A program made the translations under genes and the position numbers. The notes beneath the pieces are model-generated. The model saw only the letters and a program-made list of their open reading frames with translations, did not search any database and had not been told where the DNA came from. From a virus, in IMG/VR virus record IMGVR_UViG_3300020578_000343, positions 1 through 28,067 of that record: a stretch of DNA of 28,067 nt; one strand, 5' to 3'. Shown here piece after piece: positions 2,218-25,522 of this stretch. Position 1 is the first letter of the stretch. Every line of letters begins with the position of its first letter.

Positions 2218-2879
2218 CACCAGATGTAGAAACACTAACTATAGGGTTCAAATGGAGAAGGCATCCCCTTCTACCTGAACTCGAGATGTTTTGTCTGCCC
2301 CAAAAAGACGATGGTGTTAAAAAGCTACTTCAACAAAATAATCATTCATGGCAATGGCCCTACCTCTGGGAATGTGGAGTTGTACTAGGCAGATGGATTC
2401 TCGACAATCCAAATATAGTAAAGGATAAAGTCGTCTATGATGTAGGCACAGGTCAGGGCACAGTTGCAATTGCTGCTAAGAGAGCAGGAGCAAAAATTTC
2501 AATAGGGGTTGATTGTTGTGTATACAGCGACTTCACTATTGCTGTCAACAGCACACACAACAATGAAGTTGTGACTGCATATATTAAAGATTTGTTTAAA
2601 GCTAAGATTGCTGAGCAGTCTGTCATCTTTGCATCAGATTTAATATATGGTCAACAAACAAGTACAGACCTTCTTAACTATTTGGCAGACCTTGGTCAAA
2701 CATCCACTGTCATTATTGCTCAGTCAGGTCGTCAGCATCCTCCATATGAAGTTAAACACGAAGCATTCCACCATCTTATGTCTTATGATGTTCCATGCTT
2801 CACTCCAGGCCTAGAAACCATTGAAACCATGCCAGTTTCCCTATGGACTACTAACTCCTTGATTCTACAGGGAATGTAA
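2187..2879 (+). CDS. Class I SAM methyltransferase, ETFB-lysine/PrmA-like
   Basis: 230 residues from the ATG at 2187, with GAGGA at 2174-2178 upstream; a TTG at 2166 is also in frame. The PYLWECGVVLGRWIL segment at about 58-72, followed by SAM motif I (VVYDVGTGQGTVAIAA, 82-97), matches the group containing ribosomal-protein methyltransferase PrmA and the electron-transfer-flavoprotein lysine methyltransferases. VDCC at about 108 and FASDLIYG fit the later acidic and post-II motifs. The substrate is probably a protein side chain, but this is inference from the family. Its last codons contain the first copy of repeat array A, so the regulatory element is written into its C-terminus. Confidence 0.7.
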   Translation: MDIPAKFSSITPDVETLTIGFKWRRHPLLPELEMFCLPQKDDGVKKLLQQNNHSWQWPYLWECGVVLGRWILDNPNIVKDKVVYDVGTGQGTVAIAAKRAGAKISIGVDCCVYSDFTIAVNSTHNNEVVTAYIKDLFKAKIAEQSVIFASDLIYGQQTSTDLLNYLADLGQTSTVIIAQSGRQHPPYEVKHEAFHHLMSYDVPCFTPGLETIETMPVSLWTTNSLILQGM

Positions 2880-2929
2880 CTTACTGATTCTACAGGTGTT
2901 TTTAAAACACGTGTAACTCCTTGATTCTA
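2851..2929 (+). repeat. Repeat array A: three direct 17-bp copies
   Basis: Three same-direction copies: CTAACTCCTTGATTCTA at 2851-2867, GTAACTTACTGATTCTA at 2876-2892 and GTAACTCCTTGATTCTA at 2913-2929. The gaps are 8 and 20 bp. Between the last two lie two short palindromes, GTGTTTTTAAAACAC (2896-2910) and ACACGTGT (2907-2914). The array ends 15 bp before a -35 element. The same repeat precedes promoters at 14934 and 25495. It looks like an operator or activator array; the bound protein is unknown. Confidence 0.8.
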
Positions 2930-2944
2930 AAGGAGCTGTTGCTG

Positions 2945-2972
2945 TTGCACCTATTGACCAACAGTGTATAAT
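2945..2972 (+). promoter_or_regulatory. Sigma70-type promoter A
   Basis: TTGCAC (2945-2950), 16-bp spacer, perfect TATAAT (2967-2972). The stretch ATTGACCAA..G.GTATA.TG is nearly identical to that of promoter C at 25503-25523. The expected start point, about 7 bases past the -10, falls on or next to the ATG at 2980, so the first mRNA may be leaderless. Confidence 0.7.
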
Positions 2973-10061: not shown

Positions 10062-10079
10062 TCTTAGGTGCTTTATACT
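10051..10079 (+). promoter_or_regulatory. Sigma70-type promoter for the 10143 gene
   Basis: TTGACT (10051-10056), 17-bp spacer, TATACT (10074-10079): close to consensus. The -35 box lies in the last codons of the metallopeptidase gene. The start point would be near 10086, giving a leader of about 57 bases before the ATG at 10143. Confidence 0.65.
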
Positions 10080-10142
10080 TTACCCAACTTGATAAGTGTG
10101 ATATCAAGGAAGTTGTTAATGTTAATTGATGAGGTTATTAAA

Positions 10143-10430
10143 ATGCATAATTCTACTAAGACACGCGTTGTTGAAGTTCTTGAGTTAAAGAAGAACCGTA
10201 ATGGTTTGACACTCTCTCAGCTTCAGAAGCAGGTTGGTACTGGTGCAGCTGCTCGCGTTAGCGAAGCTCGCTTTGCTGGTTTTCCAATTTACTCGAACCG
10301 TAAGACGTTCGCTAACGGTCGCACATCAACTGTTTACCGTCTCGGTAAGCCTTCCAAGCGCTTCACGCGCAATATGAAGGCCGGGCGTACTCAGATTGCT
10401 GTTCGCTCGCTCTACACCCGCGCTGCCTAA
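10143..10430 (+). CDS. Small basic protein, probable winged-helix/HTH DNA-binding protein
   Basis: 95 residues from the ATG at 10143 (TGAGG upstream); an in-frame GTG at 10068 would precede the expected transcription start. GLTLSQLQKQVGTGAAARVSEARFAG fits helix-turn-helix geometry. It is followed by a wing-like FPIYSNRKTFANGRTSTVYRLG and a basic tail (KPSKRFTRNMKAGRTQ). The gene has its own promoter and a strong terminator, and its codons are G+C-richer than its neighbours, all of which suggests high, independent expression. It is a candidate for a regulator of the repeat-array promoters, but nothing in the sequence proves this. Confidence 0.7.
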   Translation: MHNSTKTRVVEVLELKKNRNGLTLSQLQKQVGTGAAARVSEARFAGFPIYSNRKTFANGRTSTVYRLGKPSKRFTRNMKAGRTQIAVRSLYTRAA

Positions 10431-11203: not shown

Positions 11204-11754
11204 AAATTACTTGTACCAATAAGCTGAACCCAAAGCTCCGTAAGCATGTTATTGCTCTTACACGTTTCACTGTTGACCATATCTTCACTAAGAGACAGAA
11301 AGATAAACTTCAATCTATTAGTATTAGGATTGATAAGTCCTTAAACAATACTACTGTTCATAACGTAGATGCTGTTCCGTTAGCATATATGGACGCTCAC
11401 GTTGAAGACTATGGTGAAGCACCAGGTTGGGGTCCAAGAAACTTTGTTATTTGGATTAACCCCTTCTTCACGAAGAAGAACATTACAAGGTTTACTAAAG
11501 CCACATTTCTAGAAACTATTGTTCACGAGACTGTTCACATTAGACAGGCTCTTACTGGTCAGATGAAACAAGTATACCGAAATGGTAACATGATGATTAA
11601 GTTTCATAAGAGATACTATAAAATTGACTCAGCGGAGAAGTATTGGTTGTTCCCATGGGAAGTAGAGGCTAGAGGTTACGAGAAAGGTGTCCTTAATCTC
11701 TATTGTATCAAGAATCAATGCTATAGAGAGTTTCCTGACCACCCATTGAAGTAA
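11200..11754 (+). CDS. SprT-like zinc metallopeptidase, copy 2
   Basis: 184 residues. H109-E110-x2-H113 lies in ETIVHETVHIRQAL and the later block is FPWEVEARGYEKG, the same two-part site as the 9564-10061 protein. Otherwise the two differ strongly, including an insertion here (HVEDYGEAPGWGPRNFVIW) before the active-site helix, so they are old duplicates. It starts at an ATGA overlap with the gp33-like gene and ends overlapping the carbamoyltransferase start. The substrate is unknown. Confidence 0.8.
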   Translation: MKITCTNKLNPKLRKHVIALTRFTVDHIFTKRQKDKLQSISIRIDKSLNNTTVHNVDAVPLAYMDAHVEDYGEAPGWGPRNFVIWINPFFTKKNITRFTKATFLETIVHETVHIRQALTGQMKQVYRNGNMMIKFHKRYYKIDSAEKYWLFPWEVEARGYEKGVLNLYCIKNQCYREFPDHPLK

Positions 11755-12788
11755 TGTACACGCTTGGTATCAACCTATCACATCATTCCTCTATAGCTCT
11801 ACTCAAAGACAACGAAGTAGTTCTTTTTATATTAGAAGAAAGATTGAATAGAAAAAAATATTGTAAAACAATTCCATATGAATGTTTGAAGTTAGTTTCA
11901 GAAATAACTAATCAAATAGATTACTTAATAGTCACTTCTTGCTCGAAAGAAAATCTTCACGATATCGTTGAGTGTCTAAAATCTTCTAATGTCAAGGTAG
12001 TTAGATCTAATATTAATAATACCGATCATCACAAATTCCACGCCGCAGCCGGCTTTTATATGTCACAGTTTGATCATGCATCCTGTCTTGTGATTGATGG
12101 TGCTGGATCACTTACAAAATTTAGGCCATCTGATAATATCAGAGCAAGCGAGACAACATCTGTATATGATGTTAGGTTTCCAAATACCTTCGACTGCCTA
12201 TATAAAAACTTTACAGTTGGTATATATGATAGTGGACTTCGCTTTGACTCAAGAATGAATGTTAATATATCAATTACTGAAGAGGATGTTAGAAAGTTTA
12301 AGAAAAAATTCAGTAACATCAAGCACTTGGATGTTTCAACAAATACTGATATCGGTTTTAGGTATACTATTGTTTCTCACCTCATCGGATTCCCAAAGAT
12401 GGGTGGCGAAGGTAAGACAATGGGTCTTTCTGCTTATGGGCCATTTCAATCTGACATCAAATCCAAGTTAGCATATGAGATACAGAAGCAGCTTGAACAA
12501 ACATTTTTATCTCGAGCAGAGATGTGTAGGGACGATAATATTGTTATTTGCGGTGGCTGCGCTCTCAACATTCTTGGCAATTCTTTAATCAAAAAAAAGT
12601 ATCCTAATAAAAACATATACATAGATCCAGTAGCAGCTGATTGTACAAATGCTCTTGGTGCTGCAGCCCTTTATTTTTATACACTTAGCGGTTGCCTAGA
12701 TAAACTTGTATTTAATCCTTACGGTGGTCCTCATTATAACTTGAATAAGCACTATATAAATGAACTTACAAGAAAATATTCAATATAA
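11754..12788 (+). CDS. Carbamoyltransferase N-terminal (ASKHA-like) domain, first copy
   Basis: 344 residues. The start MYTLGINLSHHSSIALLKD is the N-terminal strand-loop of the NodU/CmcH/TobZ carbamoyltransferase family. The metal/nucleotide motif TDHHKFHAAAGFY is near residue 90, followed by VIDGAGS, GEGKTMGLSAYG, and VICGGCALNILGNSL with DPVAADCTNALGAA. The family carbamoylates hydroxyl groups using carbamoyl phosphate and ATP via a carbamoyl-adenylate. The frame stops at the TAA at 12786, exactly where the C-terminal domain should begin; that domain continues in the +1 frame in the next gene. Confidence 0.85.
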   Translation: MYTLGINLSHHSSIALLKDNEVVLFILEERLNRKKYCKTIPYECLKLVSEITNQIDYLIVTSCSKENLHDIVECLKSSNVKVVRSNINNTDHHKFHAAAGFYMSQFDHASCLVIDGAGSLTKFRPSDNIRASETTSVYDVRFPNTFDCLYKNFTVGIYDSGLRFDSRMNVNISITEEDVRKFKKKFSNIKHLDVSTNTDIGFRYTIVSHLIGFPKMGGEGKTMGLSAYGPFQSDIKSKLAYEIQKQLEQTFLSRAEMCRDDNIVICGGCALNILGNSLIKKKYPNKNIYIDPVAADCTNALGAAALYFYTLSGCLDKLVFNPYGGPHYNLNKHYINELTRKYSI

Positions 12789-13317
12789 AGATGTTGCTAC
12801 GCTACTTGCAGATAAAAAGATAGTAGCTATCTTTCAAGGCAGATCCGAGAGCGGTCCCAGGGCTTTGGGTAACAGATCAATGCTCTACACACCTCTTGAC
12901 CCAAATGGGAAGGACCACGTCAATAGTGTAAAGGGCAGAGAATACTTTAGACCACTAGCTGCATCAATGTTGTTAGAGTATGCAAACGATTGGTTTGATA
13001 TGATTGGAGTAGATGAGTCACCCTACATGACATTTTCGTTCACATGTAGGGAGAATAAGAAACACATCATTCCGTGTGTAATTCATGTTGATGGTTCATG
13101 TCGAATACAAACTGTTACACAACAACAAAACTTTCATTATTACAATCTCATTAAAGCATTTAATGACATCACAGCTGTACCAATGATTCTGAATACGTCT
13201 CTTAACTTGGCTGGCGATCCACTCGTTGAGACAATAGATGACGCATTTAGAACATTTGCAAAATCTAAGATAGATTATTTGTATTTGCCAGAACTTGAAC
13301 TTATAGTATCCAAATGA
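12760..13317 (+). CDS. Carbamoyltransferase C-terminal domain as a separate frame
   Basis: 185 residues. IVAIFQGRSESGPRALGNRS, then REYFRPLAASML and ILNTSLNLAGDPLVETIDDA are the hallmark blocks of the C-terminal domain of NodU/CmcH-type carbamoyltransferases. The start ATG at 12760 lies inside the previous gene and has no ribosome-binding sequence. Read through with a +1 shift near the TAA at 12786, the two frames would make a normal full-length enzyme. It is therefore either a frameshifted gene, a programmed shift or a true separate subunit. It ends with an overlap into the second N-domain gene. Confidence 0.82.
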   Translation: MNLQENIQYKDVATLLADKKIVAIFQGRSESGPRALGNRSMLYTPLDPNGKDHVNSVKGREYFRPLAASMLLEYANDWFDMIGVDESPYMTFSFTCRENKKHIIPCVIHVDGSCRIQTVTQQQNFHYYNLIKAFNDITAVPMILNTSLNLAGDPLVETIDDAFRTFAKSKIDYLYLPELELIVSK

Positions 13318-14534
13318 GTTACTACACAGTAGCCATATCATCATCTAATCATGATTCTTGTATATGTATTATGCAGGATGCAGCAATTGTAGCAGCTTGG
13401 CAATGCGAGCGCATAAGCCGTGATAAGCATACGCAGAAAATATCCCAAAGTAATATTAATTTAATTAAGCAATACACAAGCCGCATTGATTGCGTTATAT
13501 GTGTAAATGTTTATGATCATAATCTTACAGACGTTAAACTTAAAACATTCAACAAATTACCTAGACCAGGTGGCTTCGAGGTATCCGAATCCTTATCTGC
13601 AATAAAACAAAAGTTTAGTAAGGCTGGAATTGAGTGCGGCAAATTTGTAGTAGACAATTCTAACCATCATTTGTACCACGCAGCAACTGGCTTCTATACA
13701 TCAGGGTTCGATCAAGCTCTATGTATTGTGATGGATGGAGTTGGTTCGGGTTGGGCGTGGGAAAGTGGTATGCTTTCTGAAACGACGACAATCTTTTTTG
13801 CTGATGATGGGATTACACCACTATATAAAAATTTACATTACAAAGCCACTGACTACGATCTGAAAGGTTGGAACGACAATGTAATAAAGAACATTAAAAA
13901 ATTATTTAATTGTGAAGTTGACATATCCCCAAATCTTGATATAGGTAAGATGTATGGCACTATAACTAGACACATAGGATTTCGCTCATCTACAGAAGCA
14001 GGTAAGACGATGGGTCTTGCAGCATATGGACAGCAAAACAACTTACCACCTATGTTGTTAGATGGTAGAGCAATATCCGATGCCAACTTTTTTAGAAATG
14101 ATAGTCAGCTCAATACATTCTTATATCCTAGTTTGGTTGACCCTTCCGAGAACACTAAAAAGAATTTAGCATATAATGTTCAAAGAGCGACTGAAACAAT
14201 TTTTATCAAAAGAGTAGAACAAGCATTGAGCCTTCGACCTTGTAACAATATAGTACTTGGAGGTGGTTGTGCTCTTAACATATTAGCAAATTCAATATTG
14301 AAAAAAAGATTTCCTGACATTAATTTTTATATCGAACCTATCGCTGCTGATTCAGCTCAGGCAATGGGTGCAGCCCTATACCATTACAAGAGAATGTTCC
14401 CAAAAACGAAATACGAAAAACTCAACGTGTTGTATCTTGGACCAGTCTATAATATAATACAAGTCAAAGCTAAACTTTTACAACTAGTGGAACAGTATAA
14501 CAATGAGTCTAATCTACCGGTCAATGTCAGTTAA
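13314..14534 (+). CDS. Carbamoyltransferase N-terminal domain, second copy, no C-terminal domain
   Basis: 406 residues. The domain repeats the same signatures as the 11754 gene: YYTVAISSSNHDSCICIMQD, SNHHLYHAATGFY, VMDGVGSGWAWESG, TEAGKTMGLAAYG, and VLGGGCALNILANSIL followed by EPIAADSAQAMGAALYHY. It ends shortly after LYLGPVYN, where a full-length family member would go on to the FQGRxExGPRALGNRS domain. No such domain follows downstream. It overlaps the stand-alone C-domain gene by 4 bases, so the locus reads N1, C, N2, perhaps with one C-domain serving two N-domain partners. Confidence 0.85.
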   Translation: MSYYTVAISSSNHDSCICIMQDAAIVAAWQCERISRDKHTQKISQSNINLIKQYTSRIDCVICVNVYDHNLTDVKLKTFNKLPRPGGFEVSESLSAIKQKFSKAGIECGKFVVDNSNHHLYHAATGFYTSGFDQALCIVMDGVGSGWAWESGMLSETTTIFFADDGITPLYKNLHYKATDYDLKGWNDNVIKNIKKLFNCEVDISPNLDIGKMYGTITRHIGFRSSTEAGKTMGLAAYGQQNNLPPMLLDGRAISDANFFRNDSQLNTFLYPSLVDPSENTKKNLAYNVQRATETIFIKRVEQALSLRPCNNIVLGGGCALNILANSILKKRFPDINFYIEPIAADSAQAMGAALYHYKRMFPKTKYEKLNVLYLGPVYNIIQVKAKLLQLVEQYNNESNLPVNVS

Positions 14535-14691
14535 CAATAAGGTTGCTGAACTCGTTGTCAACAACCACGAAGACATCATCTGTGTTCTTACAGATAAGAA
14601 TCTCAACATAGAAGAGAGAATACAGTGCCATGACCTCCGCTATGCAGAGCGTTTGGTCGAGCAATTTTTACGCCCTAAAAATCCTTACTAG
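14503..14691 (+). CDS. Small protein of unknown function
   Basis: 62 residues from the ATG at 14503 (a GTGGAA stretch lies upstream); an alternative ATG at 14524 would remove seven residues. VAELVVNNHEDIICVLTDKN, then ERIQCHDLRYAERLVEQFL look like a compact alpha/beta peptide. It shows none of the carbamoyltransferase C-domain motifs. Its stop codon lies inside the first inverted copy of repeat array B. Unknown function. Confidence 0.55.
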   Translation: MSLIYRSMSVNNKVAELVVNNHEDIICVLTDKNLNIEERIQCHDLRYAERLVEQFLRPKNPY

Positions 14692-14929
14692 AATCAATAG
14701 GTTACAGACCAGCGTTCTAAATCGTTCAAAACACGTTTTCCTTTAGAATCAATAGGTTACATGTTTCGAGGTCGTCTAGAAGGTGTAGTTGTGTATGATT
14801 GGCGTGCTACTAGCTCAATTTTCGTGTATACGCGTCAAAACGCGCTCTCAAATTCCCCAGTAGAATCAACAAGTTATAACTCCTTAAAAATCAACAAGTT
14901 ATGGTCAATTACGTAACTCCTTGATCTTC
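14689..14929 (+). repeat. Repeat array B: five 17-bp copies, four inverted and one direct
   Basis: Inverted copies: TAGAATCAATAGGTTAC at 14689-14705 and again at 14744-14760, TAGAATCAACAAGTTAT at 14861-14877, and a weaker AAAAATCAACAAGTTAT at 14886-14902. A direct copy, GTAACTCCTTGATCTTC, is at 14913-14929. The last three copies and the following -35 box have gaps of 8, 10 and 4 bp, exactly as in array C at 25422-25490. Facing copies could pair as a stem-loop. The array lies between the carbamoyltransferase locus and the tRNA cluster. Confidence 0.82.
14761..14916 (+). CDS. Possible 51-residue protein overlapping array B
   Basis: An open frame starts with ATG right after the second inverted repeat and ends in the last repeat. 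It begins MFRGRLEGVVVYDW and ends SPVESTSYNSLKINKLWSIT. That C-terminal half is encoded by the repeats and resembles the end of the oxygenase at 24872-25468 (SPLESIGYESLKINELV). It may be a real small protein, a gene remnant carried with the element, or a by-product of DNA-level conservation. Ribosome-binding support is weak. Confidence 0.25.
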   Translation: MFRGRLEGVVVYDWRATSSIFVYTRQNALSNSPVESTSYNSLKINKLWSIT

Positions 14930-14933
14930 ATGG

Positions 14934-14961
14934 TTGACCGATTCTGCCATTTGTGTATAGT
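14934..14961 (+). promoter_or_regulatory. Sigma70-type promoter B
   Basis: TTGACC (14934-14939), 16-bp spacer, TATAGT (14956-14961), four bases after the direct repeat copy of array B. Geometry is identical to promoter C (16-bp spacer, 4-bp distance to the repeat). The transcript would run into the tRNA cluster. Confidence 0.65.
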
Positions 14962-15266: not shown

Positions 15267-15350
15267 GCCCATGTGGCGGAATTGGTAGACGCAACGGTCT
15301 TAGAAGCCGTCGCCGAAAGCGTGGGGGTTCGAGTCCCTCCATGGGCACCA
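15267..15350 (+). tRNA. tRNA-Leu (UAG)
   Basis: Acceptor GCCCATG/CATGGGC, anticodon loop CTTAGAA in an ACGGT/GCCGT stem, long variable arm as expected for Leu, T-loop GGTTCGAGTCC and encoded ACCA end. First gene of the cluster. Confidence 0.93.
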
Positions 15351-15439
15351 ATTACAGACTGCTACCTGTTATCGTAGCAGCGTGGACTGTCACCACGGAG
15401 CATAGTGTGACGCCGGATTAGTAACCGGCACTTATTATT

Positions 15440-15515
15440 GGACCTGTCGTCTAGAGGCCTAGGACGTGGCCCTTTCACGGCCGTAACGCGAGTTCGAATC
15501 TCGCCAGGTTCACCA
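15440..15515 (+). tRNA. tRNA-Glu (UUC)
   Basis: Acceptor GGACCTG/CAGGTTC (one G-U pair), anticodon loop CTTTCAC reading UUC, T-arm with GAGTTCGAATCTC, encoded ACCA. Confidence 0.93.
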
Positions 15516-15521
15516 TATTAT

Positions 15522-15597
15522 GGATCGTTAGCTCAGCTGGTAGAGCATTTGACTCTTAATCAACAGGTCGTAGGTTCGAACCCTACACGGTCCACCA
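15522..15597 (+). tRNA. tRNA-Lys (CUU)
   Basis: Acceptor GGATCGT/ACGGTCC, D-arm GCTCAGCTGGTAGAGC, anticodon loop CTCTTAA giving CUU, T-loop TTCGAAC, encoded ACCA. Complements the UUU tRNA at 16345. Confidence 0.93.
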
Positions 15598-15605
15598 TTT
15601 TGTTT

Positions 15606-15679
15606 GCCGGATTGGTATAACGGAATTACAGCGGTCTCCAAAACCGTTAACGGGGGTTCGACTCCCTCATCCGGTGCCA
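15606..15679 (+). tRNA. tRNA-Trp (CCA)
   Basis: Acceptor GCCGGAT/ATCCGGT with a G-U first pair, anticodon loop CTCCAAA in a GCGGT/ACCGT stem, T-loop TTCGACT, discriminator G and encoded CCA. Confidence 0.9.
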
Positions 15680-15693
15680 TGCACATATATTAT

Positions 15694-15768
15694 TGGCGTG
15701 TAGATCAGCGGTAGATCAAGTGACTGTTAATCACTCTGTCGTAGGTTCGATCCCTACCACGCCAGCCA
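15694..15768 (+). tRNA. tRNA-Asn (GUU)
   Basis: Acceptor TGGCGTG/CACGCCA, anticodon loop CTGTTAA in an AGTGA/TCACT stem, T-loop TTCGATC, discriminator G and encoded CCA. Confidence 0.92.
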
Positions 15769-15771
15769 TCT

Positions 15772-15908
15772 TGATGTTGCGCGCGACATCCTTTCAGTGT
15801 AAGGGCTTATCCGTTTCGGTAACACTGATCGAATTATGAGGGCGAACGGATTGCAACCTTGCTGTGTGGGGGTAAGGATTAAGACAAACCTTGAATGGTA
15901 GCCCACAC
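15772..15908 (+). other. Structured spacer between tRNA-Asn and tRNA-Ala
   Basis: No gene seen. The spacer holds several inverted repeats: GATGT/ACATC around 15772-15789, CAGTGT/ACACTG starting near 15796, an ATCCGTTTCG segment complementary to CGAACGGAT about 40 bases later, and GTGTGGG (15864-15870) with CCCACAC (15902-15908) enclosing AAGG/CCTT. It may be a processed leader or an unrecognised RNA. Confidence 0.35.
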
Positions 15909-15915
15909 CTTATTT

Positions 15916-15990
15916 GGGGGATTAGTGCTAATGGGAACACGCTGCGTTTGCATCGCAGAGTTGAGAGTTCGATTCTCTCATCCTCCACCA
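15916..15990 (+). tRNA. tRNA-Ala (UGC)
   Basis: Acceptor GGGGGAT/ATCCTCC (one G-U), anticodon loop TTTGCAT in a CTGCG/CGCAG stem, T-loop TTCGATT, encoded ACCA. The third acceptor pair is G-U, adjacent to the usual Ala identity position. Confidence 0.88.
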
Positions 15991-15996
15991 ATTTTC

Positions 15997-16071
15997 GCAG
16001 GATGTGGCAAGCAGTAATGTGTTGCCTCCATCGGATGCCTGGAGTGAGCAATCCCAACTATCCCATCCTGC
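15997..16071 (+). ncRNA. tRNA-sized structured RNA candidate, not a canonical tRNA
   Basis: Ends pair perfectly: GCAGGATG (15997-16004) with CATCCTGC (16064-16071). Inside are GGCAA/TTGCC (16006-16010 with 16022-16026) and TCCA/TGGA (16027-16030 with 16040-16043, 9-base loop TCGGATGCC). The total is 75 bases between two tRNA genes, with D-like and anticodon-like arms. There is no GTTCRANNC T-loop and no CCA. It could be a decayed tRNA or a new small RNA. Confidence 0.35.
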
Positions 16072-16079
16072 ACTTATTT

Positions 16080-16150
16080 TGAGGAGTCGTCTAACGGCAG
16101 GACAGCAGGTTTTGATCCTGCTTATCGTGGTTCGAATCCATGCTCCTCAA
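16080..16150 (+). tRNA. tRNA-Gln (UUG), CCA not encoded
   Basis: Acceptor TGAGGAG/CTCCTCA, anticodon loop TTTTGAT in a GCAGG/CCTGC stem, T-loop TTCGAAT. After discriminator A the DNA reads CAA, not CCA. It is the only one of the 24 tRNA genes here without the encoded end, so it needs a CCA-adding enzyme. Confidence 0.9.
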
Positions 16151-16161
16151 CAAAACAATGT

Positions 16162-16247
16162 GGGCAAGCGGTGAAGTTGGAGAGTCACAACAGACTGTAA
16201 ATCTGTCGCCTTAGGCTGAGTAGGTTCGAATCCTTCCTTTCCCACCA
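16162..16247 (+). tRNA. tRNA-Tyr (GUA)
   Basis: Acceptor GGGCAAG/CTTTCCC with one C-T mismatch at the fourth pair, anticodon loop CTGTAAA, long variable arm around GCCTTAGGC as expected for bacterial Tyr, T-loop TTCGAAT, encoded ACCA. Confidence 0.9.
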
Positions 16248-16257
16248 TAATATTTCA

Positions 16258-16334
16258 GGCCCGTTAGTTCAGTTGGTTAGAACGCATGCCTGTCACGCAT
16301 GAGGCCACCGGTTCAAGTCCGGTACGGGTCGCCA
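16258..16334 (+). tRNA. tRNA-Asp (GUC)
   Basis: Acceptor GGCCCGT/ACGGGTC, anticodon loop CTGTCAC in a CATGC/GCATG stem, T-loop TTCAAGT, discriminator G and encoded CCA. Confidence 0.93.
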
Positions 16335-16344
16335 TTTTAATTCT

Positions 16345-16420
16345 GGGACCTTAGCTCAGCTGGTAGAGCAGTAGACTTTTAATCTATTGGTCAGGAGTTC
16401 GACTCTCCTAGGTCCTACCA
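16345..16420 (+). tRNA. tRNA-Lys (UUU)
   Basis: Acceptor GGGACCT/AGGTCCT, anticodon loop CTTTTAA in a TAGA/TCTA stem, T-loop TTCGACT, encoded ACCA. Confidence 0.93.
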
Positions 16421-16421
16421 C

Positions 16422-16450
16422 TTTACTTTCCACCATAGATATAGTATAGT
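16422..16450 (+). promoter_or_regulatory. Internal promoter before tRNA-Pro
   Basis: TTTACT (16422-16427), 17-bp spacer, TATAGT (16445-16450). The expected start lies directly at the tRNA-Pro 5' end (16459). It would boost the second half of the first tRNA block. Confidence 0.45.
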
Positions 16451-16458
16451 ATACAAAT

Positions 16459-16535
16459 CGGATATTAGCACAGTCTGGTAGTGCACCTGCTTTGGGAGCA
16501 GGGGGTCGCAAGTTCGAATCTTGCATATCCGACCA
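16459..16535 (+). tRNA. tRNA-Pro (UGG)
   Basis: Acceptor CGGATAT/ATATCCG with the C1-G72 pair typical of Pro, anticodon loop TTTGGGA in a CCTGC/GCAGG stem, T-loop TTCGAAT, encoded ACCA. Confidence 0.93.
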
Positions 16536-16539
16536 TTTT

Positions 16540-16624
16540 GCGACTGTGGTGGAATCGGTATACACAACAGACTTAAAATCTGTCGGCGTTAGCCATGTCG
16601 GTTCAAGTCCGACCAGTCGCACCA
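16540..16624 (+). tRNA. tRNA-Leu (UAA)
   Basis: Acceptor GCGACTG/CAGTCGC, anticodon loop CTTAAAA in an ACAGA/TCTGT stem, long variable arm, T-loop TTCAAGT, encoded ACCA. Confidence 0.93.
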
Positions 16625-16630
16625 GTTGCT

Positions 16631-16707
16631 GGCTCCGTAGCTCAGTGGATTAGAGCAACAGCCTTCTAAGCTGTGGGTCGCTGGTTCGAATCCAGCCGGG
16701 GTCGCCA
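16631..16707 (+). tRNA. tRNA-Arg (UCU)
   Basis: Acceptor GGCTCCG/CGGGGTC, anticodon loop CTTCTAA in an ACAGC/GCTGT stem, T-loop TTCGAAT, discriminator G and encoded CCA. It reads AGA, the arginine codon favoured by these A+T-rich genes. Confidence 0.93.
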
Positions 16708-16732
16708 ATTTGGGATAAAAAAGGATAAAAAT

Positions 16733-17089
16733 ATGAATGTAATTACAACACAACTTATCTACGGTTCTTTATTTGCCTTAGCTTGTATTATAATGGTCTA
16801 TACGGCTGTTGGGTGGAAGTCAATTAAAGACTGCTACTTAAACCTATTTCAAAAACAATACTGGACAGACTACAACATTGTTGAGTTTGCTAGTTGGTTA
16901 ACTAAGGCGGTAGTTATCATACCGGGTTTAATTTTTGGTCTACAGTATTGGTGGTTATACATATTTACATTAATAACTAGTATTGGTCTCATCTGGGCTA
17001 GCAATAAAAAGCTGCTTCCAACATTGGTTGGATTCAATACGATCTGGGTGTGGCTATCATGTATGGCTTTAATAGGACATTTCTTATGA
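16733..17089 (+). CDS. Multi-pass membrane protein of unknown function
   Basis: 118 residues from the ATG at 16733 (AAGGAT upstream). Hydrophobic spans are at about 8-28 (LIYGSLFALACIIMVYTAV), 60-92 (two adjoining helices, VVIIPGLIFGLQYWWLYIF and onward) and 95-118 (TIWVWLSCMALIGHFL). It is therefore probably a four-helix inner-membrane protein with many tryptophans. No family recognised. It lies between tRNA-Arg and the halogenase gene and overlaps the latter by four bases (ATGA), so the two are co-translated; a shared role is possible but unproven. Confidence 0.7.
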   Translation: MNVITTQLIYGSLFALACIIMVYTAVGWKSIKDCYLNLFQKQYWTDYNIVEFASWLTKAVVIIPGLIFGLQYWWLYIFTLITSIGLIWASNKKLLPTLVGFNTIWVWLSCMALIGHFL

Positions 17090-18288
17090 CAAAAAGAATA
17101 GCAATTATTGGTGCAGGAACAGCTGGCGCAATATCAGCTGGCTTTTTTGCTCATGAACACCACTTTAAAGAAAATGCAGAAGTAACGTGGTATGCTGACT
17201 CAAGCATTCCTACCCAAGCTGTCGGCGAGGGGTCAAATCTTATTGTGCCTAGACAACTTCTTAACGTATTAAATTTTAGGTACGAAGACCTCAAAGAGGT
17301 TAATGGAACATTTAAGTCAGGTATTGCAAAGTACAATTGGGGTAAAGAAAATTCTTATTACTTCCATGACTTTTCACCTCCAGCTGTTGGTTACCACTTT
17401 AATGCCGTTAAGTTGCAGCAATATATTGCCAAGCGTCTTGAAGGTAAGGTACGAATGATTGATCAGAACGTAAAGGCTAGCGATATTGATGCTGATTACA
17501 TAATTGATTGTTCTGGTCGTCCAAAAAGTCTGGATGATAACTTTTACGAATCCAGAAATATTCCTGTGAACTCAGTTCATGTTACTCAATGCTTTTGGGA
17601 TTTTCCGAGATTCCAACACACGCTGACCATTGCAAGACCTTATGGTTGGGTGTTTGGCATTCCTCTCCAAAACAGATGTGCAATTGGCTATCTCTATAAC
17701 AATAAAATTAACACTCTTGATGAAATCAAAGAGGATGTAAAAAATGTATTTAAAGAGTTTGCCTTAACGCCCAGTGATACGACAAATACATTTTCATTTT
17801 ACTCTTATTGCCGCCGACAAAATTTTATAGGTAATATTGCATACAACGGTAACGCATCTTTTTTCACTGAACCACTTGAAGCAACTACAATTGGAAACAT
17901 GATGCTTATCAATAGAGACATGCTTGGTGTGATTACTGGTGTTACGAGTCTAGAGAAAGCGAATAAAAATTATCTGTTTATGAACCAAGGCTCGATTGAT
18001 ATGATATGCCTACATTATTTTGCTGGCTCGGCTTTTGATACAGAATTTTGGCAGCATGCTAAGACGCTTGCTGTAAACCAGCTTACACAGGCCGCTCGCA
18101 ATGGTCCATTTAGAAATATATGCTTAGAAGCAATTAAGCAGCTTAGTGCCAACGCCAAGTATAATAAAATGCTTACCCTCAAAAAGGGAGAATACGGCAC
18201 ATGGTCAGTCGCTAGTTATGCAACTAACATTAACGGACTTGGTATAGCTAGTCAGTTAGCAGATTTTTTACATCAGAATAGTCGTTGA
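17086..18288 (+). CDS. Flavin-dependent (tryptophan-type) halogenase
   Basis: 400 residues. The FAD-binding motif G9-A-G11-T-A-G14 (IAIIGAGTAGAISA) and AVGEGSNLIVP (45-55) are present, as is the catalytic-lysine segment TFKSGI (K77) and the TEPLEATTI stretch (261-269) with conserved acidic residues. These are the hallmarks of PrnA-like halogenases, which use FADH2, O2 and halide. The WxWxIP signature is altered to W188-V-F-G-I-P. A cyanophage halogenase of this group (VirX1) has been reported to iodinate many substrates, so the substrate need not be tryptophan. A flavin reductase is not visible in the window. Confidence 0.85.
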   Translation: MTKRIAIIGAGTAGAISAGFFAHEHHFKENAEVTWYADSSIPTQAVGEGSNLIVPRQLLNVLNFRYEDLKEVNGTFKSGIAKYNWGKENSYYFHDFSPPAVGYHFNAVKLQQYIAKRLEGKVRMIDQNVKASDIDADYIIDCSGRPKSLDDNFYESRNIPVNSVHVTQCFWDFPRFQHTLTIARPYGWVFGIPLQNRCAIGYLYNNKINTLDEIKEDVKNVFKEFALTPSDTTNTFSFYSYCRRQNFIGNIAYNGNASFFTEPLEATTIGNMMLINRDMLGVITGVTSLEKANKNYLFMNQGSIDMICLHYFAGSAFDTEFWQHAKTLAVNQLTQAARNGPFRNICLEAIKQLSANAKYNKMLTLKKGEYGTWSVASYATNINGLGIASQLADFLHQNSR

Positions 18289-18313
18289 CTATTTTTGCTG
18301 TACATTGTAACAT
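18285..18313 (+). promoter_or_regulatory. Promoter before tRNA-Thr
   Basis: TTGACT (18285-18290) overlaps the halogenase stop TGA; 17-bp spacer; TAACAT (18308-18313) as a moderate -10. The start would fall just at the tRNA-Thr gene (18322). Confidence 0.4.
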
Positions 18314-18321
18314 ACATATAC

Positions 18322-18397
18322 GCCCTTGTAGCTCAGCTGGTAGAGCGCCTGATTTGTAATCAGGATGTCGGCGGTTCGATTCCGTCCGGGGGCACCA
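18322..18397 (+). tRNA. tRNA-Thr (UGU)
   Basis: Acceptor GCCCTTG/CGGGGGC (two G-U pairs), anticodon loop TTTGTAA in a CCTGA/TCAGG stem, T-loop TTCGATT, encoded ACCA. Confidence 0.92.
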
Positions 18398-18413
18398 TTT
18401 CAATGAGGTTATT

Positions 18414-18617
18414 ATGAATAACAGTTTACTAAAGGAAGTGTGGCGAACAGCTGAGAACGCTAGAGACCCAAACCTTACTGGGTTTGTTAACTGGCCATAT
18501 AAGCAACAGCTTTATCTTGCTCAGAAAGAAATTGAAAAACAACTTGCCCAGTGCTCAACATTTGTTGGTGAAGAAGAATGGTTAGCAGAGATGAGAGCTG
18601 AAGGAAAGGTATTATAA
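18414..18617 (+). CDS. Small protein of unknown function
   Basis: 67 residues, start supported by TGAGG. It is helical and amphipathic (LLKEVWRTAENARD, YLAQKEIEKQLAQCS, EEEWLAEMRAEGKVL), without cysteine pairs or membrane spans. It lies alone between tRNA-Thr and a structured spacer. No family recognised. Confidence 0.6.
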   Translation: MNNSLLKEVWRTAENARDPNLTGFVNWPYKQQLYLAQKEIEKQLAQCSTFVGEEEWLAEMRAEGKVL

Positions 18618-18626
18618 ATAAGCAAC

Positions 18627-18678
18627 CAGCCGCCCTACCTTTCGGTGTAAGGTTTGTCGCATAGCGATGGCTGTTTTT
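18627..18678 (+). other. Branched stem-loop with T-run
   Basis: CAGCC (18627-18631) pairs with GGCTG (18669-18673), enclosing small hairpins including TCGC-ATA-GCGA, and is followed by TTTTT. It could act as a terminator after the 18414 gene or be a structured RNA before the next tRNA. Confidence 0.35.
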
Positions 18679-18741
18679 CGTAAATAAGGAATCTAGGGCA
18701 CAGTGCGCAATGTGTGGCGATAGATAAACCGAGACTTTTAT

Positions 18742-18816
18742 TGCGGAGTAGAGAAGTAGAATCTCGTCAGCCTCATAAGCTGAAGACCGGTGGTGCGAAT
18801 CCATCCTCCGCTACCA
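18742..18816 (+). tRNA. tRNA-Met (CAU), initiator-like
   Basis: Acceptor T1 to G7 pairs with C66 to C71, leaving 1-72 as an unpaired T-T. The D-stem GAGA/TCTC has A11-T24; both are marks of bacterial initiator tRNA. The anticodon loop is CTCATAA, but its stem (TCAGC/GCTGA) lacks the three G-C pairs of classical initiators. The T-loop reads TGCGAAT with G at position 55. ACCA is encoded. Confidence 0.85.
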
Positions 18817-18825
18817 ACTTTAATT

Positions 18826-19098
18826 ATGACATTAGATCAATTCAATAGCCTATTTCCTATCATAGCTAGTGTTGCTGTGATAATGAACATTCATAGACTC
18901 TACAGAGATAAAATTGTAAAGGGTATTCATCCCTTTAGCCCTCTCATAGGGTATACTGGTCAAATCTCAGGAACAATCCTTCTATACTCACTTGGTCAAT
19001 ACTATTCCGCGGCAGCTGGTGCCTGGTATACACTGTTGTCTTTCACATGGTATTCGATGATGATATACTATAACTTTTATAGAAAGACGCCCGGTTAG
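18826..19098 (+). CDS. Small membrane protein of unknown function
   Basis: 90 residues from the ATG at 18826; an upstream in-frame start lies in the tRNA gene and was rejected. Three hydrophobic spans are seen: LFPIIASVAVIMNI (about 8-21), SPLIGYTGQISGTILLYSLG (about 38-57) and AGAWYTLLSFTWYSMMIYY (about 65-84). The stop TAG is at bases 8-10 of the tRNA-Val gene, so the last three codons are also the tRNA's acceptor strand. No family recognised. Confidence 0.65.
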   Translation: MTLDQFNSLFPIIASVAVIMNIHRLYRDKIVKGIHPFSPLIGYTGQISGTILLYSLGQYYSAAAGAWYTLLSFTWYSMMIYYNFYRKTPG

Positions 19099-19164
19099 CT
19101 CAGCTGGTAGAGCGCCGCCTTTACACGGCGATTGTCGGCGGTTCGATCCCGTCACCGGGTACCA
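19089..19164 (+). tRNA. tRNA-Val (UAC)
   Basis: Acceptor GCCCGGT/ACCGGGT, D-arm GCTCAGCTGGTAGAGC, anticodon loop TTTACAC, T-loop TTCGATC, encoded ACCA. The anticodon stem has four of five pairs. The 5' end overlaps the preceding gene by ten bases. Confidence 0.9.
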
Positions 19165-19192
19165 ATTAGCCTCGTACTGTTCAGGCAAGTGG

Positions 19193-19240
19193 GGCAAAGG
19201 CCGGAGACTCGCGGCGCCAAGCACGAAAAAGGCCTTGGCC
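19193..19240 (+). other. Stem-loop in spacer before tRNA-Ser(GCU)
   Basis: GGC-A-AAGGCC (19193-19202) pairs with GGCCTT-G-GCC (19231-19240) in a nine-pair stem with one mismatch. The spacer 19165-19261 holds no gene. It may guide processing of the tRNA precursor. Confidence 0.4.
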
Positions 19241-19261
19241 AACATGAGTCCTTGTTTTACT

Positions 19262-19349
19262 GGAAGGTTGCTAGAGAGGCCTATTAGCGCTCTTTGCTAA
19301 AGAGATGGATGTAAAAGTCACGTAGGTTCGAATCCTACACCTTCCGCCA
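19262..19349 (+). tRNA. tRNA-Ser (GCU)
   Basis: Acceptor GGAAGGT/ACCTTCC, anticodon loop TTGCTAA, long variable arm as required for Ser, T-loop TTCGAAT, discriminator G and encoded CCA. Confidence 0.9.
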
Positions 19350-19364
19350 CTATGTGAGGTTTAT

Positions 19365-19646
19365 ATGCCAATAGATATTCCAGAATCAGAAATTGTTTAT
19401 GTTATGGAAGGTGAACAGCAAAACGAGGGAATGGTTTTCCTCAAAGCCGATTGCCCAACAAAACATTTAGGTCAGTTTGTGTATGCAGTTGTTGATGGTA
19501 TGGTGATTCGCAAGGGTTGCTATAAATCAAAACAACAAAATGGTCAGCAGACTTTGAGTGTTATATGGTTCGAAGAAAACATTAAGGATGAAAAGGCACC
19601 AGAGATCGAACGTGTGCCTGTACTCCCTGATCCAGTTATAATTTAG
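19365..19646 (+). CDS. Small protein of unknown function
   Basis: 93 residues, start supported by TGAGG. Beta-rich (ESEIVYVMEGEQQNEGMVFL, GQFVYAVVDGMVIRKG, TLSVIWFEENI) with a proline-rich acidic C-terminus (VPVLPDPVII). Two cysteines only. Its stop codon TAG overlaps the first two bases of the following tRNA gene. No family recognised. Confidence 0.65.
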   Translation: MPIDIPESEIVYVMEGEQQNEGMVFLKADCPTKHLGQFVYAVVDGMVIRKGCYKSKQQNGQQTLSVIWFEENIKDEKAPEIERVPVLPDPVII

Positions 19647-19720
19647 CAACGTAGCATAGTGGCTAATGCACTTCCTTCATACGGAATTTATCGTCAGTTC
19701 GAGTCTGACCGTTGCTACCA
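19645..19720 (+). tRNA. tRNA with CAU anticodon: elongator Met or Ile2
   Basis: Acceptor AGCAACG/CGTTGCT beginning A1-T72, D-arm GCAT/ATGC with C11-G24 (elongator type), anticodon loop TTCATAC in a CTTCC/GGAAT stem, T-loop TTCGAGT, encoded ACCA. It could decode AUG, or AUA if the C34 is converted to lysidine. Frequent ATA codons in the window make the second option real. Confidence 0.88.
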
Positions 19721-19721
19721 T

Positions 19722-19796
19722 GTTGCGGTGGCAGAAAAGTTATGCAAGAGTCTGCAAAACTCTTTTATGCTGGTGCGAGTCCAGTCCGCAACTCCA
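19722..19796 (+). tRNA. tRNA-Cys (GCA), T-loop with G55
   Basis: Acceptor GTTGCGG/CCGCAAC, discriminator T as usual for Cys, anticodon loop CTGCAAA in an AGAGT/ACTCT stem, encoded CCA. The T-loop reads TGCGAGT: G at position 55, where nearly all tRNAs have U. The initiator-like tRNA at 18742 has the same change. Confidence 0.9.
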
Positions 19797-19801
19797 ACAA
19801 C

Positions 19802-19879
19802 GCGGGTAGATTAGGACAAGGGGCGTCCAGCAGCCTTCCAAGCTGATAATGCGGAGTTCGACTCTCCCTACCCGCTCCA
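19802..19879 (+). tRNA. tRNA-Gly (UCC), unusual D-arm
   Basis: Acceptor GCGGGTA/TACCCGC, anticodon loop CTTCCAA, T-loop TTCGACT, discriminator T and encoded CCA. The D-arm pairs only as GGAC/GTCC after a five-base linker GATTA instead of two bases, and the first T-stem pair is C-C. Confidence 0.8.
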
Positions 19880-19883
19880 CTAT

Positions 19884-19960
19884 GTGACCGTTGTCAAGTG
19901 GTCTAAGACCCTGGGTTGTGATCCCAGTATACGTTGGTTCGAATCCAACCGGTCACCCCA
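19884..19960 (+). tRNA. tRNA-His (GUG)
   Basis: Acceptor GTGACCG/CGGTCAC, anticodon loop TTGTGAT in a CTGGG/CCCAG stem, C73 then encoded CCA. The base before G1 is T, so the G-1 that normally pairs with C73 in tRNA-His is not encoded. Confidence 0.9.
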
Positions 19961-19971
19961 TATACATATAA

Positions 19972-20047
19972 GGGACAATAGCTCAGTTGGTAGAGCAAAG
20001 TGTTGATAACGCTTAGGTCCATGGTTCGAGCCCATGTTGTCCCACCA
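19972..20047 (+). tRNA. tRNA-Ile (GAU)
   Basis: Acceptor GGGACAA/TTGTCCC, anticodon loop TTGATAA in an AAGTG/CGCTT stem, T-loop TTCGAGC, encoded ACCA. Confidence 0.92.
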
Positions 20048-20061
20048 TCTTCGAGGTTACT

Positions 20062-20643
20062 ATGGCATACTTACCTGAATACTTAGACTTTGTTATGGAC
20101 TCAATCAATCTTGAGTACTATAACCCAGCTGGCCTTTCTATGTTTGAACTTGGCAATCAAAGATTTATTGGTGGTCAGTACACAACCGGTAAAGAATACT
20201 TCAAACACATTGGTATGAAACATACCTCTGTTGATATTAACGGAGAAGATGGAGCACTGCCTTTAGATTTAACAAAGCCAGAACTTTTTTATGACTTTAG
20301 ATGTGAGTATGATGTGCTGACTAACCTTGGTACTACAGAACATGTTGAACCAATTGCTAACCAGTATGAATGCTTCTCTATTATCCACGATGTGGTAAGG
20401 GCTGGCGGTATTATGATCCACATGGTACCTGATGTGGAAGAACTGGATAACTCCGGTGCCTGGCGTGACCATTGTAGGATATACTATAGGAAGGAATTCT
20501 TTACTAAATTGGCTGAGCATTGCAACTACACAATGCTTGAGGATAAAGTAATCTTTGGATTGAGGTCTGTTGTCCTTCGGAAGGAAACTGCAAGAGCATT
20601 TACAACAAATAGAGAAATATTTAAATCAATTGAGGCTCGATGA
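20062..20643 (+). CDS. SAM-dependent methyltransferase-like protein
   Basis: 193 residues. A Rossmann methyltransferase pattern can be followed: LSMFELGNQRFIGG (motif I region, about 25-38, without a standard GxGxG), TSVDINGEDGALPLDL (motif II and III, about 55-70), YDVLTNLGTTEHV (motif IV, about 83-95) and VRAGGIMIHMVPD (about 111-123). The family often methylates small molecules or sugars. CGAGG upstream supports the start. It is coupled by overlap to the first of three 2OG oxygenases, so they may act on a shared product. Confidence 0.65.
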   Translation: MAYLPEYLDFVMDSINLEYYNPAGLSMFELGNQRFIGGQYTTGKEYFKHIGMKHTSVDINGEDGALPLDLTKPELFYDFRCEYDVLTNLGTTEHVEPIANQYECFSIIHDVVRAGGIMIHMVPDVEELDNSGAWRDHCRIYYRKEFFTKLAEHCNYTMLEDKVIFGLRSVVLRKETARAFTTNREIFKSIEAR

Positions 20644-21320
20644 ACACTTTCACAATTGACACCGGGCTTGCTGACAGACTAGAAAGAGATATTATTATTG
20701 ATTGTAAGCCAAGGTACACATATCTCAGAGATACTGCTGACTACAATTATAGAAACGGTAGCAAAACAGCAGGTGGCCAAAAAATAATAAGATCTCAGGG
20801 ATTCACCAATGGCGTGTATACAATGCTTCGCCATTATCCAATTTATGGGACGTATGAAAAAATGATTGAACGTGATCCAGATTGTGTTCCTGTACAAGCT
20901 CCAAGTATTACAGAGTTGGTATACCAGTTGAGAAATCAATACCTTGATCCTCTATATGATATTGTTCGAGTCTATGTAAACATTATGACAATAGGGGTGG
21001 AGTCGGGTGTAACCACACCCCACTATGATGTGGATGATGAAGAAGCAATAACATTTCTATATTACGTTGTAGATAGCGATGGAGATACGTTTCTCTTTGA
21101 TGAAGAAACTGACAGTATTATTTTTAGGCATCCACCTATAAAGGGGACAGGAATATATTATCCATCAAAAACAGTACATGCAGCCTCTATACCAACAACA
21201 CATGAAATTAGATCGGCCCTTAATATTATTTACAGCAAAAACTACTTTGAAAGAAATGGCAATTACCTTCTGAAAGAACATGATAGACGTAGTAAGCAAC
21301 ATACCAGACCACATCGTTAA
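20640..21320 (+). CDS. 2OG-Fe(II) oxygenase, copy 1 of 3
   Basis: 226 residues. The iron triad H128-x-D130 (TTPHYDVDD) and H180 (TVHAAS), with the 2-oxoglutarate-binding R191 (TTHEIRSALNIIY), is complete in a prolyl-4-hydroxylase-like fold; GDTFLFDE and PPIKGTGIYYPS are typical core strands. These enzymes hydroxylate a substrate using O2 and 2-oxoglutarate. The N-terminus FTIDTGLADRLERDI is like that of copy 3 (IIVNSQLADSVEREI), showing descent by duplication. Starts by ATGA overlap with the methyltransferase gene. Confidence 0.85.
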   Translation: MNTFTIDTGLADRLERDIIIDCKPRYTYLRDTADYNYRNGSKTAGGQKIIRSQGFTNGVYTMLRHYPIYGTYEKMIERDPDCVPVQAPSITELVYQLRNQYLDPLYDIVRVYVNIMTIGVESGVTTPHYDVDDEEAITFLYYVVDSDGDTFLFDEETDSIIFRHPPIKGTGIYYPSKTVHAASIPTTHEIRSALNIIYSKNYFERNGNYLLKEHDRRSKQHTRPHR

Positions 21321-21843
21321 TAATGTAGAACGCTGGATTGTATCGACAAAGATACCATGGTTCTATTTTAACCACACCTTGGGAGATGTGCCAAAGGGTG
21401 ATAGTGAAGTTGAACAAAGTAAGTACATCATAAAAGATCTGCCAAGATTTACCCATTACTTTTACCCCAATTCAAAGACGCCAGATGAAGATAAAAAAAT
21501 TGTAGCGCCACTCTCAGAGTGGTGCATAAAAAATATACTACCACATAACTACGAGGTCAAAAGAGTGATGGGCAACATGACATTATGTGACGGTGACAGT
21601 AGTAAACTGCTAAACATACCCCATGTAGATTCCCACAACAATAATTTTTATTCCTTTTTGTATTACGTTAATACAAGTGATGGCGTTACAGTATTCTTTA
21701 AAGACAGAAAGATTGAACATGAGATCAAACCAATTAAAGGTACTGGTGTGCTTTTTCCATCCAATGTTGTACATGCAGGACAGATTCCTAGTATAAATAA
21801 AACTAGGTATGTGATTAATATTATATTCGGCAAGCGGGATTGA
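21280..21843 (+). CDS. 2OG-Fe(II) oxygenase, copy 2 of 3
   Basis: 187 residues. H115-V-D117 (IPHVDSHN), H165 (VVHAGQIPS) and R176 (KTRYVINIIFG) form the iron and cosubstrate site, with IKGTGVLFPSN between. It overlaps copy 1 by 41 bases. The stop TGA at 21841-21843 lies inside tRNA-Gly(GCC), whose acceptor strand encodes its last residues (KRD). The substrate is unknown; the tandem copies may hydroxylate different positions of one target. Confidence 0.85.
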   Translation: MIDVVSNIPDHIVNNVERWIVSTKIPWFYFNHTLGDVPKGDSEVEQSKYIIKDLPRFTHYFYPNSKTPDEDKKIVAPLSEWCIKNILPHNYEVKRVMGNMTLCDGDSSKLLNIPHVDSHNNNFYSFLYYVNTSDGVTVFFKDRKIEHEIKPIKGTGVLFPSNVVHAGQIPSINKTRYVINIIFGKRD

Positions 21844-21907
21844 TGTAATGGTAGCCTGGGACCTTGCCAAGGTTCGCGCGCGAGTTCGATTCTCGCATCC
21901 CGCTCCA
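21834..21907 (+). tRNA. tRNA-Gly (GCC)
   Basis: Acceptor GCGGGAT/ATCCCGC, anticodon loop TTGCCAA in a GGACC/GGTTC stem, T-loop TTCGATT, discriminator T and encoded CCA. Its first ten bases are also the end of the oxygenase gene. It sits between oxygenase copies 2 and 3. Confidence 0.92.
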
Positions 21908-21921
21908 TTAATGGTGCAACA

Positions 21922-22575: not shown

Positions 22576-22600
22576 CCTTGTTTGATGTTTATGGTATTAT
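22572..22600 (+). promoter_or_regulatory. Promoter before tRNA-Ser(UGA)
   Basis: TTGACC (22572-22577, overlapping the oxygenase stop), 17-bp spacer, TATTAT (22595-22600). The start would fall a few bases before the tRNA-Ser at 22613. It would also feed the genes that follow. Confidence 0.6.
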
Positions 22601-22612
22601 ACCTCCGAATAG

Positions 22613-24875: not shown

Positions 24876-25468
24876 AGTTGCCAAATCTTCTTTATAAGAT
24901 TGGAGAGGTTGACGTCTCTACAATTGAGGAACATGTTAACCAACTAACTCAAGAACAATGGATTGAATGGGACCTAAGACAGAATAGGTATAAAGTCCAC
25001 TCTGCCACAGAATCTTATCCATTCCTGTTCTCTGAGTATGGTGAAGAGCCAAAGGAATATAACCATGACACTAATTTATGGAATGTAGTTAAGCCTCTTA
25101 TCGGTAAGCTTGAGAAGTTCTATAATAGAAAAGCTGGAGCAGTTGTCCTGGTTAAGCTCAAGCCAAACACAAATATCATTCCGCACACTGATGGTGGTTG
25201 GTTTGTTGACACACATAGGCTTCATATTCCTATCATTACCAATCCTGGTATCATATTCACTCTTACTAATAAGAGAGTGCATTTGAAGAAAGGGTGGATC
25301 TACGAACTTAACAACCTTGTCCAGCATGGTGTGATCAACCCAACAGACGTTGGTAGAGTCCATTTAATGGTAGACCTTGACCCCAAACACCCACTGAATC
25401 CTGCAATCCAAAAAAGTCCTTTAGAATCAATAGGTTACGAATCGTTAAAAATCAACGAGTTAGTGTAG
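24872..25468 (+). CDS. Aspartyl/asparaginyl beta-hydroxylase-like 2OG oxygenase
   Basis: 198 residues. IIPHTDGGW (H105, D107), VDTHRLHIPIITN, then LVQHGVINPTDVGRVHLMVDL (H152, R162) match the aspartyl/asparaginyl hydroxylase group, distinct from the three oxygenases in the tRNA region. It presumably hydroxylates a peptide or small molecule with 2-oxoglutarate and O2. Its last 16 residues (LESIGYESLKINELV and neighbours) are encoded by two copies of repeat array C, so the regulatory element has shaped or extended the C-terminus. Confidence 0.82.
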   Translation: MKLPNLLYKIGEVDVSTIEEHVNQLTQEQWIEWDLRQNRYKVHSATESYPFLFSEYGEEPKEYNHDTNLWNVVKPLIGKLEKFYNRKAGAVVLVKLKPNTNIIPHTDGGWFVDTHRLHIPIITNPGIIFTLTNKRVHLKKGWIYELNNLVQHGVINPTDVGRVHLMVDLDPKHPLNPAIQKSPLESIGYESLKINELV

Positions 25469-25490
25469 TTACTGTAACTCCTTGATTCTA
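25422..25490 (+). repeat. Repeat array C: two inverted and one direct 17-bp copy
   Basis: TAGAATCAATAGGTTAC (25422-25438, inverted), AAAAATCAACGAGTTAG (25447-25463, inverted, weaker) and GTAACTCCTTGATTCTA (25474-25490, direct). Gaps of 8 and 10 bp, then 4 bp to the -35, are the same as in array B. The outer copies can pair: TAGAATCAA with TTGATTCTA and GTTAC with GTAAC, so a large stem-loop at the end of the oxygenase gene is possible. Confidence 0.85.
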
Positions 25491-25494
25491 CGTG

Positions 25495-25522
25495 TTGTCT
25501 CAATTGACCAATCGCGTATAGT
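25495..25522 (+). promoter_or_regulatory. Sigma70-type promoter C
   Basis: TTGTCT (25495-25500), 16-bp spacer, TATAGT (25517-25522). Its core closely matches promoter A (ATTGACCAA..G.GTATA.TG). The start near 25530 leaves a short leader with AGAGAGGA before the ATG at 25549. Confidence 0.7.

Follow-up and report, generated by a model that had tools for sequence, protein, structure and literature searches.

In phage promoters assisted by IHF, among them lambda pL and Mu Pe, sites of the IHF consensus precede a sigma70 promoter, and to our knowledge these sites are single or widely spaced. The PeSL cassettes of T4-type phages consist of an early promoter plus a stem-loop. In the cultured Stenotrophomonas phage DLP6, a member of the T4 superfamily, 25 "phage promoters" were listed by its authors, 22 of them grouped in twos ahead of gene clusters, and IHF was not mentioned (PMC5349666). 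These "phage promoters" are apparently the same repeats as the arrays described below, so the repeats of DLP6 were probably known before and the link to the IHF consensus is apparently added here. With high confidence it can be said that promoters in a lineage of the T4 superfamily carry arrays in which an IHF-consensus site recurs in several phased copies; these arrays differ from the lambda pL and Mu Pe type in that the sites are clustered at 25 or 37 bp and are reused across many promoters per genome.

In the window (the whole analysed stretch of 28,067 nt) the 17-bp element was matched 9 times with no more than 3 mismatches, where shuffles predict 0.09, and every match fell inside one of three clusters; the position matrix added two weaker copies (14886-14902 and 25447-25463), while matrix matches elsewhere in the window were weak singles (e.g., 24237 and 27157). 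The total of eleven copies confined to three arrays, which had been claimed in the first-pass annotation, was thereby borne out, including the range of array B from 14689, where two extra distal copies were found (14689 and 14744) that are kept in a 188-kb relative (G001) at 178198 and 178253. The common geometry of arrays B and C (inverted copy, 8 bp, inverted copy, 10 bp, direct copy, 4 bp, -35 hexamer) and the position of the last copy of array A, 11 bp further upstream than in B and C, were confirmed as well. Sites are spaced by 25 or 37 bp, and each array is followed by the expected sigma70-like promoter with a 16-bp spacer, although the -35 of promoter A can be aligned equally well at 17 bp; the -35 hexamers of promoters A and C are poor (Table 1).

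Table 1. Arrays and promoters of the window; dyads (first A of AATCAA) are given relative to the start, which is estimated as seven bases past the -10 element.
Feature	Position	Strand	Description
Array A	2851..2929	+	three direct copies (2851-2867, 2876-2892, 2913-2929) with spacings of 25 and 37 bp; dyads at about -115, -90, -53
Promoter of array A	2945..2972	+	TTGCAC, 16 bp, TATAAT (2967-2972)
Array B, distal pair	14689..14760	-	inverted copies 14689-14705 and 14744-14760, 55 bp apart
Array B, core	14861..14929		inverted 14861-14877, inverted 14886-14902, direct 14913-14929; dyads at about -104, -79, -42
Promoter of array B	14934..14961	+	TTGACC, 16 bp, TATAGT (14956-14961); tRNA cluster downstream
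Array C	25422..25490		inverted 25422-25438, inverted 25447-25463, direct 25474-25490; dyads at about -104, -79, -42
Promoter of array C	25495..25522	+	TTGTCT, 16 bp, TATAGT (25517-25522); orthologue in contig L127

The dyads of array C were counted by hand to the TATAGT box and not to a TATGAT further downstream; in its L127 orthologue the computed dyads were also -104, -79, and -42. The first in-frame ATG after promoter A is at 2980, approximately at +1, and its mRNA is possibly leaderless. An ATG about seven bases past the -10 (TATAAT-GGACGGC-ATG) was seen at several promoters (2967-2982, 149873 in G001, and 143474 in DLP6), and the annotated DLP6 gene AAY80_251 begins at such a near-+1 ATG, which suggests that several array promoters may give leaderless mRNAs. 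Downstream of array B, 23 tRNA genes are clustered at 15267-22702, some of them between protein genes. Adjacent carbamoyltransferase-type ORFs occupy 11754-14534, where 13314-14534 matches phrog_1601 and the ORFs at 11754-13317 resemble, by eye, a split related copy of it.

The core consensus of IHF is WATCARNNNNTTR within a full site of 35 bp, and A-tracts left of the core are a feature of strong sites (PMC8421141); the consensus is also given as TAAnnnnTTGATW (PMC10380432). On the opposite strand the 17-mer reads TAGAATCAANNNGTTAC, which includes the IHF consensus WATCAANNNNTTR and also TAACTCCTTGATT. The first-pass annotation had missed this match and is revised here as to the type of the element, since on that strand every copy fits the IHF consensus either exactly or with one mismatch: in the window exact matches to WATCAANNNNTTR make up 9 of the 11 array copies, 2876-2892 and 14913-14929 have one mismatch each, and in DLP6 all copies but one are exact to the core consensus. 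Exact WATCAANNNNTTR occurs in the window 15 times against 2.3 expected, and its close pairs 5 times against 0 expected. For comparison, the lambda P-arm site in NC_001416 (attP), which we take to be the H1 IHF site, reads CTAAGTAGTTGATTCATAG. Of 14 distal DLP6 copies, 9 have an A-tract at -12 to -10 (background 0.0065). A-tracts also precede several copies in the window, such as 25422-25438 of array C, whose A6 tract lies 9 bp before the core, and were lacking at other copies. In one conserved type of array the middle copy, GTAACTCCGCGTTTTTA, departs from the consensus but holds its position. A single site has room for 35-bp IHF wrapping, while neighbours at 25 bp overlap because this spacing is shorter than the site, and full wrapping of both at once is doubtful; this is the chief objection to IHF as the binder.

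Viral contigs contain the exact 17-mer in 74 stretches, of which many show arrays with 0/25/62 spacing, and this geometry of array A recurs in many contigs and in DLP6 (34653/34678/34715). The same arrays are present in larger relatives and in the cultured phage. G001 contains about six arrays or copies (98918, 113251, 115723, 149818, 162819, and 178198) with promoter-like sequence after each, the T4-like contig G011 contains about ten arrays, and DLP6 possesses approximately 30 copies of AATCAACGACTTA or near variants in 15 arrays, almost throughout as pairs at exactly 25 or 26 bp. DLP6 shares with the window the same element, the 25-bp pairs, one 0/25/62 array, the position upstream of gene clusters, and the gene order RNaseH, PhoH, exonuclease, dCMP deaminase; it differs in the core AATCAACGACTTA, in the predominance of pairs without a proximal copy, and in the GC-rich hairpin that often precedes the promoter.

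No arrays beyond chance were detected in T4, S-PM2, S-RIM8, S-CRM01, phiM12, Melnitz, Mosig, HTVC008M, and Lacusarx, and in most of 80 polymerase relatives arrays were missing from the fetched region around that gene. The trait is therefore either restricted to a lineage or patchy. Sinorhizobium, the host of the T4-superfamily phage phiM12, presumably has IHF, and thus IHF presence alone does not predict arrays. BLAST with the paired consensus also matched named phages (Klebsiella and Vibrio phages, Lacusarx, Enc34, HTVC115P, and others), of which six were inspected and hold single cores, and for this reason only DLP6 was counted among them; there were matches in plasmids too. Pairs of IHF sites at 31 bp gave chance matches only. 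Among the matches listed for pairs at 25 bp there were many Bacteroidetes-like phage contigs (L136, L146, L154, L201, and others) with the palindromic 25-bp unit TAACNNNTTGAWWWTCAANNNGTTA; since some of these units are terminator-like hairpins with T runs and few of the contigs show a Bacteroidetes-type -7 box close by, they were left out of the claim. Polymerase matches in genome contigs, considered as a host clue, pointed to one contig in a Bacteroidetes MAG and were uninformative.

On the + strand of DLP6 a core lies between -120 and -20 in 13 of the 14 extended -10 promoters, and a sigma70-type -10 element is situated downstream of all arrays at a quantised distance. Taking DLP6, the window, and its close relatives together, the dyads are at about -58, -69, -79, or -90, in steps of one helical turn. 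In DLP6 the pair member nearer the promoter is at -58/-59, -68/-69, or -78/-79, and most arrays lack a proximal copy, their nearest site being at -58 or more distal. In the window and its close relatives the positions are -67/-68, -79/-80, and -90, with additional proximal copies at -42/-43 or -53. At a period of 10.5 bp the Rayleigh R was 0.956 for DLP6 (reached by 0 of 50,000 random draws), phasing in the window with G001 to G004 gave p=0.001, and the whole of G011 gave p=0.08, or p=0.0007 once two opposite-face arrays were dropped by a post hoc choice, all of these values overstating independence because cassettes within one genome are probably duplicates. The distant arrays of L184, L207, and L135 are on other registers. 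Direct and inverted copies have identical dyads (-42/-79/-104 in B and C) that agree within 1 bp with the all-direct DLP6 array, as expected of a pseudo-symmetric dimer, and since 25 bp is about 2.4 turns and 37 bp about 3.5 turns, successive sites are on roughly opposite faces. Thus the regulatory reading of the first-pass annotation is strongly supported: copies were not scattered at random without promoters, and the arrays are nearly all beside promoters, from which they are set off in steps of the helical turn, the cultured phage included.

Sequence constraint was estimated in an alignment of A-type orthologues only, where among 14 distinct orthologues of array A the invariant columns comprised 26 of 27 IHF-specified positions against 22 of 42 spacer positions (permutation p=1e-4) and 9 of 12 N positions, this conservation being partly built in because the exact third copy served to fetch the orthologues, while the first two copies were unselected. 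A further source of constraint may be that the first copies of array A are located within the last part of the preceding coding frame. The flanks of the 17-mer are also largely conserved, more than IHF requires, and within DLP6 the N positions are near-invariant (CGAC).

Similarity to PeSL cassettes, suggested earlier for the window, consists in the repeated modules between gene clusters and the sigma70-like promoter, and several DLP6 modules add a stem-loop; the array of IHF-type sites and the lack of a strong hairpin in the window modules are the differences. In folding, the window modules were weak (-4 to -6.5 kcal/mol), and strong GC hairpins appeared in 3 of 5 DLP6 cassettes folded. The comparison suits DLP6, with GC-rich hairpins between array and promoter in several cassettes, better than the window. 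The hairpins at 87612-87675 and 121628-121691 of DLP6 (about -18 kcal/mol) are perhaps terminators of the upstream operon. With T4 middle promoters (MotA/AsiA) the modules share an extended -10 and a poor -35, but the repeats lie upstream of the -35 rather than at -30, and no match to MotA or AsiA was obtained in G001 to G004, G011, and DLP6 with a positive T4 control, the contigs other than DLP6 being possibly incomplete.

Each array may be considered as a group of targets for an IHF/HU-family protein that bends DNA as a pseudo-symmetric dimer, with IHF of the host as the likeliest candidate and the downstream promoters presumably read by host sigma70 RNA polymerase. No IHF/HU gene (PF00216) was found in seven array-bearing phage contigs other than DLP6, possibly incomplete, which would leave IHF or HU of the host as the binder. 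Soon after DNA entry host IHF would occupy the arrays and bend the upstream DNA in phase with polymerase, and this would activate promoters with a weak -35; the weak -35 hexamers of A, C, and DLP6 together with the phased upstream sites make activation by bending the likeliest mode. We favour, with some reservation, host IHF as both binder and activator of these promoters, a role that is predicted from site sequence and position. Repression by the same kind of binding, where the arrays keep promoters silent or delayed and the sites are cleared later by replication or a phage factor, is regarded as unlikely: the proximal -42 copies of B and C would put a 35-bp footprint across the -35 hexamer, but the general absence of proximal copies in DLP6 speaks against it, and weak -35 hexamers with helical-turn steps seem to fit activation better.

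It is less improbable, though still doubtful, that the arrays are operators of a phage-encoded dimeric protein whose target is only IHF-like and which activates or represses a regulon of early or middle genes. The restriction of arrays to a lineage (they are absent from the surveyed region of most polymerase relatives and from the nine named phages), the conservation of N positions and flanks beyond the needs of IHF, and a dimer footprint compatible with the 25-bp unit agree with such operators, and the product of 10068-10430 (given earlier as 10143-10430), a possible winged-helix protein, would be a candidate binder with a 68% orthologue in G001. Its weak DLP6 match is in synteny and matches HTH_39 below the cut-off, with homology limited to 32% over 71 aa (E=0.019). 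Moreover, the exact agreement with the IHF consensus at the specified bases and the A-tracts on the expected side would then be coincidental, and unrelated Bacteroidetes-like large phages carry similar 25-bp arrays. That the repeats are themselves phage promoters read by a phage factor, apparently the PHIRE-based proposal of the DLP6 authors, accords with their published list and its grouping in twos before gene clusters (PMC5349666), yet the sigma70-type -10 at a quantised distance downstream of all DLP6 arrays and the occurrence of both orientations relative to genes make this very improbable. A function as recombination site, replication iteron, or mobile cassette, with no part in transcription, would explain tandem multi-copy sites with fixed spacing and the apparent duplication of DLP6 cassettes; this is the least probable explanation, given the link to promoters in helical register with the -10 and the several dispersed positions per genome that are kept between relatives.

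Under activation by host IHF the array promoters would together constitute a presumably early regulon of the T4-superfamily lineage. A further suggestion, which is tentative, is that tandem sites on alternating faces give rise to a nucleoprotein of zigzag shape ahead of almost all early promoters of this lytic lineage. With sites that overlap at 25 bp, the two bends would then exclude each other or be half-wrapped; we know of no description of a promoter architecture with zigzag, overlapping sites of a bending protein.

In summary, an unexplained repeat, apparently published as "phage promoters", is turned into a testable hypothesis, where DLP6 with its host permits direct testing and the natural one-turn spacing variants represent ready phasing mutants. 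Judging by the arrays and their helix-fixed distances, the promoters that carry them probably need an architectural protein of the host, and if this is true, a T4-superfamily lineage ties many of its promoters to a nucleoid protein of the host.
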